DNA from: Lumbricus terrestris
Taxonomy: Eukaryota > Annelida > Clitellata > Crassiclitellata > Lumbricidae
Assembly (NCBI GenBank): GCA_949752735.1
Contig: OX457042.1
Coordinates: 59,462,297-59,526,296, forward strand
Reading direction: 5' to 3'
DNA length: 64,000 nucleotides
Below the pieces are notes generated by a model. The model was given only the letters and a program-made list of their open reading frames with translations, searched no databases and was not told the origin of the DNA. The number at the start of each line of letters is the position of its first letter. Within the stretch, counting starts at the first letter, position 1. This document shows positions 27,861 through 60,998 of the stretch, in pieces. The translations under genes were made by a program, and so were the position numbers.

Positions 27861-28047
27861 TTGTGTGTTATTCCACTGGAGATCTTAGACATTATCCTTG
27901 AAAAGTCTTATCTGCATTGGATATTGAATTCGACAACACAGCAAAGAGATGAAGATGTTATCAGGTCTCTCTTGTCAGTTGAAGTTTGCTTCATTCAAAG
28001 AATCACCAGAAAACGGTTCAAGAGGTCAATCTGGCGTTACATGAAAG
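27861..28047 (+). CDS. Exon A of the CARD/NHL gene (tentative)
   Basis: A 187-bp open segment between a splice acceptor (AAATTTGTAG at 27851-27860) and a donor (AAAG/GTAAGG). It encodes about 62 residues, helical in character and basic towards the end (ITRKRFKRSIWRYMK). It enters in phase 0 and leaves in phase 1, and phase 1 is exactly what exon B needs. I recognise no named domain; it might be a diverged part of a death-fold region. It is not a first exon because no start codon with upstream context is evident, so the gene's 5' end is not located. Linkage to exon B rests on strand, spacing and phase. Confidence 0.45.
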
Positions 28048-28402
28048 GTAAGGTTCTTTCCAAGGATCGTAACAGTTGTACAAATTATTTCTTTAGATCT
28101 CAAGACTTGCACTGAAATTGTGTGTCCTGCTCTCCATAATATAGGCTACGCGTCATCAGCATGGTGGAGTTATGCTGGGTAGCAGGAGTACAATAGATAC
28201 AGTCCGTGATGGACCGAATGTTTGGCTGCCCTCTTACCAGTGGGCAGCCCAACATTGGAACAGCTGTATAGAACAGCAGAAGGGAAACTTGTACAATTTC
28301 AAGGCTGCATACTGCATAGTGCCGATAATGATACAAAAGACAGATGCTATGAAAACTGTCGTCTCTTTGGTCAACTTGTACATTTCTGACGCGAATTAGA
28401 AT

Positions 28403-28692
28403 ATTTATTTAACAAAATCCCGGGAACCAAACTGTAATTGGTTGAATTATTAAAGAGTATTCCGTTCAATTCACATTTCCCATTAATTCACTTAAGTTTG
28501 GAGGAACTATAGTTGTCTGCCAGACGGGGGCTTCTTGTCATGTAGGTGTGCATGTGCCTGCTGGTCGGCACTCATGCGCTGTGTTCTAGTTAGCCCTACC
28601 TCTTGTCTGGATACATTTTATCCTGGGACATTTTTGTTTAGGGACTTTATGTCCAGGAATATTGTCCGGAGACATCTTGTCCATCACCAATC
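28403..28692. other. Intron A-B segment with a possible solitary foldback arm
   Basis: Mostly unremarkable AT-rich intron. From about 28603 to 28690 there are five or six degenerate 15-bp units (for example GGGACATTTTTGTTTA and GGAGACATCTTGTCC) resembling the arms of the TU-like elements, but no inverted partner could be found upstream. Confidence 0.35.
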
Positions 28693-28960
28693 TGGCATTG
28701 CGTGAAAAATGCAAATAGATGTGACAGGTTATTAGCAATTAGTGAGCAAGACATCTTGGCGTAAATGCACTTATTTTCCAAGTTGCATAAATTTCATAAC
28801 TTCAGTCATCAATGGCTTATATTCGGTTTCTATTTTAATTTACATTTTTTTATTCTATCAGCATTTCGGACAAAACTATTTTGCTAAAGATGAAATTTTC
28901 TAATAAAGGCTAAAAATTGTAATGTCATTCAAAGATAATGATGGCCTGAATATCTTTTAG

Positions 28961-29248
28961 ATTTCTTTGGAAAAGCCAAGAAAAGGTCTGCAATCATTAG
29001 AAACAACAGAAACTATCTCTTAGAAAATATTCAACCAAGTGAGGAATTAATCGCTTCTCTGTTATCTCTCGACTGCATAACACAAGAACAAAGTCACTTC
29101 ATCCAACGACAGAATTCAACACAAGATAAAAACTCAGAGCTCCTGTTCGTCGTGGAATCTTTCGACGAAGCAAAGTTCTCAAATTTCGTCAAGTGTGTTC
29201 GACAAACCAACCAGGAGACAGTGGCAAGGGTCATAGAAAATGGAGGAG
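28961..29248 (+). CDS. Exon B: CARD domain
   Basis: A 288-bp open segment (96 codons) after the acceptor TATCTTTTAG and ending at a GTGCAA donor, phase 1 at both ends. The translation has the layout of a caspase recruitment domain: basic N-terminal helix (KKRSAIIRNNRNYLLENI), then PSEELIASLLSLDCITQEQ, then HFIQ, a polar stretch, SELLFVVES, and a last pair of helices with FSNFVKCVRQTNQETVARVI. These are the six-helix hydrophobic positions of CARDs, including the characteristic Leu-x-Asn-Ile / Leu-x-x-x-x-Ile-x-x-Glu pattern and the closing Leu/Val-Arg-x-Thr-x-Gln. CARDs assemble signalling filaments in apoptosis and innate immunity in the cytoplasm. A CARD followed by exons C and D suggests an adaptor or receptor; that function is inferred. 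Confidence 0.75.
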
Positions 29249-29321
29249 GTGCAAAGTATAGGCCTAAACTTCACCTAAAGGCCTGTGACTAACATAATTT
29301 GCTTATACCAAAGGCAGTAAT

Positions 29322-29460
29322 AATAATAATAATAATAATATTATTACAAATAATAATAATAATAAAAATAATAATAATAATAATATTTATAATAGTAATA
29401 ATAATACTAATAATAATAATTGTGATAATTATGAAGTAAAAATTAATAATTAATTAATAA
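29322..29460. repeat. (AAT)n microsatellite, degraded
   Basis: Imperfect AAT/TAA tract that precedes the first endonuclease-type LINE fragments. Confidence 0.8.
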
Positions 29461-58122: not shown

Positions 58123-58340
58123 CCGAGGTAGTTCTAATCCCTCAGGAAGTCACAAAATGTCCGGAGACTGTATTATTATTATTTTTTTTAGCGCCCGAGG
58201 TATATTTGATTCCTCAGGCTTTAAAAACAAAATAAAAGCTTCTTTATAGGTTCTCGTCTCCAACGTGCTGTATTATTATAATATTATTATTATTTTTTTT
58301 TTTGCCCCGAGGTATTTAGGATCCCTCAGGGACTTCATTG
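58123..58340 (-). mobile_element. Cluster of minus-strand LINE 3' UTR fragments
   Basis: Three short pieces, each with CCGAGGTA...CCTCAGG next to an ATT-rich run, the inverse of the 3' end at 43211-43285. Successive 5'-truncated insertions. Confidence 0.55.
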
Positions 58341-58344
58341 CTAA

Positions 58345-59646
58345 CTATTGTTTAAAAACTAGTCCGGAATTGTCAGGCCTCGTCTTGAGGGTTTGAAGAG
58401 AAAGTTCCTTTAAAAGCGACCGAGTTATAGCGCTGAATGTTGACAGACAGCTGCTGGAAAAGAAAAGTTGCTTCGCGTCTGTCACCAGTAATGGACGATA
58501 TGCGCTTGCCGATTTCGTTGATGAATTCCAAGGCTGATGGATTAAGCGGGTCTCTATTGCCACTGGTTGGAAGATGTAAGAAGCGGGAATACCTGCATAT
58601 TTCTGGGTTTTACGGTTGGCCGCCTGCACTGATACCGGTCCTACCAGATTGGCCGGTGGAGTAATGTAAGAGGCGGCACAAGTATGCACAATTGTGGCGA
58701 CCCATGCAAGGTACTGTCCCTCTGATCAGGTTATTAGGGTTGCACCGTCGGGCCTTTTGCCGTCAGATCTAAATAGGCCCGCGGGTTCCTTGACCCTCGG
58801 AATATTTGCTTTGAGGAGGGCGCGCCAAATGATGTCGTTTATGGCGTGTTGACGCAAAGAGCGTCCCAAGGCCCTCCTACAAACGAAGCCATGGTGGCCC
58901 TCCGGGCCAACTCCAGCGCCACAGTGGCATGTGTGAGGACCGCACAAGTCCAGACCCAGCCTCAATCCCACCGCCACCCGGACCGCCTCATTATCCAACG
59001 CGAGGCCACACGCGGCAATCGGGAGCGCAGTCAGCCAGTCGGCTGAATGAGGACCGCTGACCGCGACCAGCCTGGCTTGGTTGACCAAATCGACGGCACT
59101 CCTGCTGACTTCCAACTTATCCTTCTCGATCAGGGGCCGATCCCAGCAACTCTGTCGGATGGGCAGAGGGTCTATCGTCGCAGGCAAGGTGTCTTGACGT
59201 GCCTCCAACAGGTCCGCCACATACACATCAGGGGCTGCCTCCACGGTCGCAAGAATGGCGGTTTGAAGCTCGAGAGTCGACGCGGCTGAAGCCAAGTAGG
59301 CAGAAGAAGCCAGCGAATCGACTCTGCGAATACCGAGTCCGCCATCTCTGATGGGAAGTGCGGCCTGCAGCCACTGATGGTCATTGAGAGAACAGTTGAC
59401 AATTCCCTGTAGACCCGATCTCATTAGTCCATCCAGTGTCACAAGGGCCGGGTGGTCAAAGCAAGGGGAGCACCGGAGAAGATAGCTCAGTCTTGAGGCG
59501 CCAAAAGATGAACGCAATAAAATCAAGGCGTTCTGTGATGGCAAAAGGCGCAACCTGTCCAGAGCTCGACGGAACATATCACAATGACTCTCCAGGGCAG
59601 CGTCCAGCGCCCTACCCCGAAACAGAGGAGCTCCCAGTAAGCTCAT
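58345..59646 (-). mobile_element. Endonuclease-type LINE fragment, minus-strand copy
   Basis: A 306-codon open frame from 59646 starts at LLGAPLFRGRALD (RT thumb), with LNDHQWLQAALPI, the CCHC knuckle CHCGAGVGPEGHHGFVC and KRPDGATLI. It is disrupted near 58725, losing the WDAT half of the endonuclease in frame, and a further 114 codons at 58689-58345 carry the C-terminal region. (ATT)n lies at both ends. Confidence 0.8.
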
Positions 59647-59727
59647 ATTATTATTATTATTATTATTATTATTTTTATTATTATTATTATTATTATTATT
59701 ATTATTATTATTATTATTATTATTATA
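59647..59727. repeat. (ATT)n microsatellite
   Basis: Tract adjoining the 5'-truncated edge of the minus-strand LINE copy. Confidence 0.95.
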
Positions 59728-59868
59728 TAGCCTACGAGCAGAGATATCAATATTTTAAACAGTTTTAAAATTGAAGTAAGTTTTTAATATAAATTAGATG
59801 CAATAATGAATGCCAATAAATTGCATCGAATATTTTGCTTATGATAAAATATTTTGATTTTATTTTAG

Positions 59869-60998
59869 TCGTGTGTCCGTTTTCCATCAATTTTACCCAG
59901 AGAATTGAGATACCAGGAAATGAAGATGTGAGATCGCATATGTATAGAGTGACAAAACTGCGAAATAAAATCTACTTGCTCATTGGACGGCCTTTTCCAC
60001 CTCCTCCCAATTCTCCTCCTGTAGTTTATGTCTTTGAAGATCAAAATCCATTTAATTCGCAAATGGACATCGAATTAACAGGGATCAGATTTCCCGATGA
60101 CATTGGATCCAGTGAGAAGGAGAATTGTCTCTACGTTACTGACTTACTTGAGAGAAGAGTCTGGAAGGTAACCAGCGAAGAAGATGGCGGACACAACTTT
60201 ATCAAATGGCTGACAATTGATTATCTACCAGTGAGTCAGCCACTGTCGGTGTCGAATGATGGTCAGTTATTGGTTTTCAATAATTCCTCGCTGATGATCT
60301 ACGGATCAGACGCAGAACTCATTCGATCCATTCAGTTACCAACAGACATCAATGATCCTCGTCGTGCAGTGGAAACATCTATAGGGAATTTCATCATACT
60401 TCATTGGTTGATACAAGAGAAGGGAGAGGGTGAGTCCAACGAGGGTGACAGAGTAATGAAAGGGGGCATATGCGAATTGAGCAGAGATGGACAGATGGTC
60501 ATCCGTCGTTTTATTCCTTCAAATGAAGCACAACAACTGAATGATCCTCGTTATCTCTCACTCGATTCATACGATCGAGTGTTTGTGGCTGACTCAGGGA
60601 ATGACAGAGTGATCCTCTTGGATTCCGATCTTAGATGGAATAGAATTCTTTTGCCAACAGGCGAGAAAGAAGAAAGGAGAATCCACTGGCCAAACAGATT
60701 ATTTTTCGACGAAGAAAAGACACAAGTGATCGTCGGAGGACATGAAGTTAATGTTTACTCTTTAACCCTCATAGGGTCACGATTTTTCTCAACCGATTTT
60801 GGTCACCGGGGAGTAAAAAAATACCCCCACGGTGATTCGCATGATTCCTATGATAAACTCCGATTTTCAAGTATAAAACCAAAAGAAGTTGTTTATGGAA
60901 GGTTCGCGGAATGCACTGGAATCAAAGAAACATATGCAGAAATGCAGGAAAATCAAATTGATGAACAAAATGGCGACCAGAATCTTAATTGGCTATAA
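59869..60998 (+). CDS. Exon D: NHL-type beta-propeller, 3' end replaced by transposon sequence
   Basis: Begins after acceptor TTTTATTTTAG at 59868, phase 1, matching the donor of exon C. About 298 native codons follow. Blade-like repeats: RIEIPG then NKIYLLIGRP; ENCLYVTDLLERRVWKV; PLSVSNDGQLLVFNN and LIRSIQLP; AVETSIGNFIILHW and GICELSRDG; PRYLSLDSYDRVFVADSGND then RVILLDSDLRWNRIL; PNRLFFDEEKTQVIVGG then VNVYSL. The fifth is a textbook NHL repeat. NHL propellers bind RNA, protein or ligands. At 60766 the coding frame runs into a piggyBac-like element and picks up about 77 foreign codons to a stop at 60998. The original frame would have read Ser-Arg-Lys-stop at 63159-63170. Confidence 0.8.

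Follow-up and report, generated by a model that had tools for sequence, protein, structure and literature searches.

A clustered gene family in Lumbricus terrestris predicted to join a CARD to an NHL-type beta-propeller with one variable face

A 64,000-nucleotide (nt) stretch of the Lumbricus terrestris genome, hereafter the window (C8:59462297-59526296, in a source assembly of 1,056,305,194 bases and 331 contigs), holds on its forward strand what we predict to be one gene of four exons, A to D, that joins a CARD to an NHL beta-propeller and belongs to a large family clustered on the same contig. The four exons and the conserved stretch upstream of them are as follows, in coordinates of the window.

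Upstream stretch, 22287..27850, plus strand: four blocks with 66-71% identity to the region 5' of exon A in a paralogous locus (L039)
Exon A, 27861..28047 (187 nt), plus strand: conserved exon, probably helical, with a phase-1 donor, recognised by frame and splice sites
Exon B, 28961..29248 (288 nt), plus strand: CARD, by match to the PF00619 profile
Exon C, 45041..45388 (348 nt), plus strand: alpha/beta domain, possibly TRADD-N-like, from paralogous copies, a predicted model and fold comparison
Exon D, 59869..60998, plus strand: six-bladed NHL-type beta-propeller, conserved to about 60776 and followed by a 73-codon extension ending in a repeat

AG stands directly before every exon and GT directly after A, B and C, the described frames are all open, and the A/B, B/C and C/D junctions are all of phase 1, giving a single continuous frame; on re-checking, the frames, splice sites and phase-1 borders described in an earlier note on this DNA proved correct. 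The gene spans 33 kb, with long introns between B and C (15.8 kb) and between C and D (14.5 kb). No start codon was found for it, and an exon 5' of A is missing from the model. From the four conserved blocks 5' of exon A it follows that the duplicated unit extends at least back to 22287; translated comparison of these blocks, to the same position, gave stops and frame changes without a clear coding block. An Rfam scan returned nothing at gathering score, and no tRNA was found.

The assignment of exon B as a CARD, made earlier from the letters, is borne out by a profile search above the Pfam cut-off over the whole domain (PF00619: E = 1.4e-7, 31.9 bits where the cut-off is 23.9, profile positions 3-84 of 85); a PDB search by sequence with exon B alone reached the caspase-9 and NOD1 CARDs at E-values of 0.1-0.4 only. 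Its relatives in the protein database (23 of 46 candidates, at 60-86% identity) carry a precomputed CARD in 19 of 23 cases and are similar mostly within the two splice borders, and an AG acceptor and a G|GT donor accompany all six paralogous copies. The database relatives of exons B, C and D look like single-exon predictions and carry no linkage information. Exon B DNA had no match among phages, and viral contigs held no relatives of exons B, C or D. A second type of CARD, 24-27% identical to exon B, was seen at three other loci (L041, L055 and L056), at one of which (L041) it sits upstream of a copy of exon D, such that another CARD may also join this propeller. The genome holds further CARD families, since contig C2 carries another dense run of CARD matches at about 56-84 Mb, with a single exon D match on that contig among the matches listed.

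Exon D had likewise been read as an NHL propeller, a reading that is weak by Pfam for the window copy, which scores below the cut-off (13.5 bits against 20; E = 0.078, or 0.069 in a second scan), and clear by family profile and predicted fold. Pfam NHL matches four of five family members (best E = 0.00024), and a profile of the family finds the NHL structures of Thin (9.5e-10), TRIM71 (4.4e-8) and TRIM2. The predicted model, at a predicted local distance difference test (pLDDT) of 66.5, has the NHL domains of TRIM2 and TRIM3 as its top structural matches, TRIM2 being best in Foldseek (E = 2.0e-11; template modelling scores 0.54/0.71), and shows the six-bladed NHL fold. Four database relatives (of 7996 scored) are similar mostly between the splice borders; one of them, P0001, has a long internal insertion that itself resembles propeller, that is, extra blades. 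The acceptor of exon D is in register in all 28 copies, and 27 of the 28 paralogues checked reach a stop 0-3 codons past the conserved end. The window copy reads 73 codons beyond that point (60777-60995) and terminates within a repeat of about 142-154 bp, so that its end at 60998, the last position of the gene as first described, probably reflects a lost stop codon.

A search of the same genome with exon D (130 scored of 1272 candidates) gave 136 match rows, corresponding to at least 130 copies when second pieces are set aside, at 54-71% identity; these and the CARD counts below are lower bounds, as only the best candidates were scored. Of the copies, 114 lie on contig C8 between 41.8 and 61.4 Mb, and the segment at 57.9-59.8 Mb contains 54 at a median spacing of 28.7 kb, close to the span of the window gene. 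The earlier note had proposed that exons A to D form one gene joining a CARD to an NHL propeller and had suggested a search for paralogues with the same exon order. In six loci chosen for having a CARD match 2-4 kb 5' of an exon D match on the same strand, this search found A, B, C and D in order, on one strand and within 3.5-5.8 kb in five (L039 on contig C19; L040, L042, L043 and L044 on C8), which supports the predicted single gene with all four exons, order and strand kept on two contigs. In the sixth (L041), exon D accompanies a divergent CARD, 24% identical to B, and A and C were not detected. One of the five, L042, includes L007, a locus in which A and B had already been seen. Exon A also precedes B in five of 12 additional loci, each taken with about 2 kb of sequence 5' of a CARD; in two of the 12 the only CARD is a divergent one. 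CARD matches (150 scored of 659 candidates) were drawn from the Pfam family as a whole, which includes genes of other types. Of the 40 of these 150 rows that fall on C8, C10 and C19, 11 are followed on the same strand by an exon D no more than 10 kb away and, among the matches listed, none has it only upstream.

Exon C had been noted as an unknown domain. Its identity is still tentative, but it is no orphan: two of nine database candidates are relatives, similar mostly between the splice borders, and copies lie within 1.5 kb upstream of exon D, on the same strand, at 10 of 30 exon D loci. It is an alpha/beta domain with, perhaps, a TRADD-N-like fold, an assignment for which the evidence from the model and from profiles is weak and partly negative. 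PF20694 (TRADD-N) matches two of 14 copies, at best with E = 0.022, and unrelated families do equally well (Swi5, 0.0078; Sigma70_r1_1, 0.0081); four candidates from the same genome gave no PF20694 match, a result that carries no weight; and a PDB search by sequence gave nothing meaningful. A hallmark of TRADD-N is a Tiny-residue-Ser motif in the turn between beta2 and beta3 (PMC8195603, section 8), and no such motif stands out where the exon C model would place that turn. The exon ends with a GC donor (G|GCAAG) in twelve loci (L013, L017, L021, L023, L028, L029, L032, L034, L037, L039, L040 and L043) and with a GT donor in the window, L042 and L044; a GC-AG intron after exon C is kept through the family. 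Partial extra copies stand 5' of the full exon in L032 (275-436) and L044 (2938-3006), and are exon duplications within the family.

The exons differ in constraint. The median pairwise ratio of nonsynonymous to synonymous substitution rates (dN/dS) is lowest for the CARD, at 0.30 (6 copies), and rises through exon A, at 0.38 (6), and exon C, at 0.47 (13), to 0.68 for exon D (35 rows, 34 distinct). When the loops of exon D are assigned from the predicted model, its variable residues concentrate in the bc and da loops, which together form one face of the propeller, presumably the side on which NHL propellers bind ligands. Entropy averages 2.05 bits in the bc loops and 1.34 in the da loops, as compared with 0.92 in the strands and 0.69 in each of the ab and cd loops; the bc and da loops exceed the ab and cd loops by 0.93 bits, a difference reached by none of 10,000 permutations. 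Over all 595 pairs of exon D sequences, dN/dS is 0.95 for bc and da together (1.22 for the bc loops and 0.80 for the da loops taken singly), 0.49 for ab and cd, and 0.58 for strands, and over 17 disjoint pairs it is 0.88 for bc and da (bootstrap 0.75-1.02) against 0.42 (0.31-0.55) for ab and cd. Graded constraint combined with one-sided variability fits a diversifying sensor set on a conserved signalling module.

We consider it probable, if well short of certain, that exons A to D make up a single gene within a large, clustered family of animal genes and encode an intracellular receptor-like protein, in which a variable face binds different ligands in different copies and the CARD serves as output. 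The predicted protein would combine the exon A domain and the CARD with an adaptor domain of alpha/beta type, perhaps TRADD-N-like, and with the NHL beta-propeller. The propeller would be the sensor, its variable face binding different ligands in different copies, whether microbial protein or RNA, or altered self; ligand binding or clustering would lead the CARDs to form homotypic assemblies, and these might recruit caspases or adaptors that carry a CARD themselves, exon C being a possible bridge to effectors. Copying of the entire unit, together with alteration of the propeller face, would generate the repertoire. A role as an innate immune receptor, which we infer, fits the size of the family and the one-sided variability of its propeller.

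Several points weigh against this interpretation. The window copy, with open exons, has lost the exon D stop codon of the family and may not be a working gene. Among the matches listed, 29 of the 40 CARD matches have no exon D within 10 kb downstream. The loop assignment depends on a model of modest confidence (the pLDDT given above), and over the 17 disjoint pairs the variable face is not shown to exceed 1 in dN/dS, either as a whole, at the value already given, or for bc alone (1.07, 0.80-1.48). Synonymous differences are also raised on that face (0.32 versus 0.23). Part of the signal may therefore stem from relaxed constraint, from gene conversion or from misalignment, and proof of positive selection is lacking. 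One alternative accepts the family as real and holds that its face varies through relaxed constraint, or through shuffling by gene conversion in a locally duplicated family, without recognition of diverse ligands; a face dN/dS near 1 and not clearly above it, together with the synonymous differences on the same face, speaks for it. Internal stops in just six of the 136 exon D rows, the constraint retained by the ab and cd loops and the strands, and the still stronger constraint on the CARD speak the other way, and we regard this account as rather unlikely.

A different alternative concerns exon A and would make the protein a substrate receptor of an SCF-type ubiquitin ligase, exon A being a divergent F-box, the propeller picking the target and the CARD assembling the complex. 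Exon A is a real, constrained exon, probably helical, with no fold assigned: alignment of nine paralogous copies gave 12 invariant columns over 10 rows, and a pattern LPxE ... VxVC ... IWR is common to ten copies with few exceptions. This pattern, which we take to recall an F-box with a long first loop, favours such a protein, as does a hand-typed consensus of exon A that matched PF13013 (F-box-like_2) at E = 0.048 and 14.1 bits, below the cut-off of 21.6. Profile tests did not confirm the resemblance. None of the ten real copies matches any F-box family, a PDB search by sequence found nothing for exon A, PF12937 locates 54 places in the genome of which none lies within the family's stretch of C8, and profile comparison (hhalign) with 20 of those F-boxes scores 15.1, within the range of 60 shuffles (maximum 18.7). 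We judge a ubiquitin ligase receptor of this kind unlikely, and a shade less likely still the compound proposal of a diversifying immune repertoire inside cells, made up of more than 100 genes, in which NHL propellers of differing ligand face would drive CARD and adaptor and a divergent F-box in exon A would add ubiquitination to CARD signalling. The notion that exon A is half of a CARD was also considered and is not supported: a 24-sequence CARD profile ranks it top among the other 1554 open reading frames (ORFs) of the window, yet at 5.6 bits and E = 1.5, and profile comparison gives 17.6, within the range of 60 shuffles (maximum 20.1). Finally, a division of the exons among at least two adjacent genes, one for the CARD and one for the NHL propeller, that merely lie side by side might be suggested by the two long introns of the window and by the many listed CARD matches without exon D nearby, but is very improbable given the matching phase-1 borders, the AG acceptors in register, and the conserved order and strand at five loci spread over two contigs.

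Further features of the window are repeats and retroelement sequences, those in its long introns being as follows.

Intron B/C, 29249..45040, plus strand: enlarged by retroelement sequences, with matches to RVT_1, Exo_endo_phos, zf-CCHC and gag-asp_proteas
Reverse transcriptase in intron B/C, 31733-33094, minus strand: Pfam match
Endonuclease in intron B/C, 33528-34475, minus strand: Pfam match
Reverse transcriptase in intron B/C, 36196-37365, plus strand: Pfam match
Ty3-like gag/protease frame in intron B/C, 39776-42241, minus strand: Pfam match
Intron C/D, 45389..59868, plus strand: contains an inverted pair of 154-bp tandem arrays

Retroelement sequences within intron B/C cover 29735-43148, and B and C stand much closer together in the compact paralogues than in the window. 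Identical direct repeats at 38409 and 42363 flank the Ty3-like frame and may be long terminal repeats. The 154-bp tandem arrays lie in inverted orientation at 47034-50613 and 60966-61245, with arms 98% complementary, and by eye a 142-bp form of the array unit is present at the end of exon D, where the frame of the window copy stops. At the other end of the window, positions 1-19045 hold nearly identical direct repeats at spacings of 6.0, 6.0 and 6.7 kb, with long minus-strand ORFs in each unit, two of them without a Pfam match; this region has the look of a tandem array of recent origin.

It is chiefly from TRIM-NHL regulators, whose RNA- or protein-binding ends they form, that NHL propellers are known. 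The present family shares with these proteins (TRIM2, TRIM3, TRIM71, Thin and Brat), its best fold and profile matches, a C-terminal NHL propeller; its exons A-D carry instead a CARD, and RING, B-box and filamin were not found in exons A-D of a model that lacks the first exon, such that as far as these exons show it is not a TRIM-NHL protein. Apaf-1 combines a CARD, an NB-ARC ATPase and a C-terminal WD40 beta-propeller sensor region; the union of CARD and C-terminal propeller is alike, whereas NB-ARC and WD40 were not found in exons A-D. In invertebrates, NLRs and other expanded CARD receptors form large families with a CARD output and a variable sensor, as here, but neither NACHT nor LRR is present in exons A-D. 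The nearest described architecture is the DED-TRADD-N-WD40 arrangement of amphioxus (PMC8195603). For amphioxus and oysters, Kaur et al. (2021) describe an expansion of DED-TRADD-N proteins that bear WD40 propellers, and suggest that these propellers may recognise invader molecules (PMC8195603). Both sets of proteins have a death-fold domain, TRADD-N (if exon C is one) and a variable beta-propeller, and the lineage-specific expansion in marine invertebrates and proposed sensing of invaders can be likened to the present family. The latter has a CARD in place of the DED, NHL in place of WD40, and exon A in addition; built from CARD and NHL parts, it is not filed with the DED-TRADD-N-propeller proteins, although it would work like them. 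The text of PMC8195603 contains no occurrence of NHL or of F-box, and no paper on a CARD-NHL family stood among the listings of a literature search.

A clustered family of more than 100 copies, in which a CARD is coupled to an NHL propeller that varies on one face, would constitute a new class of candidate innate receptor, one that resembles the known sensors composed of death-fold domains and propellers but is assembled from other parts. It offers a directly testable set, by way of expression after challenge, the ligand of the variable face and the CARD partner that would be recruited.

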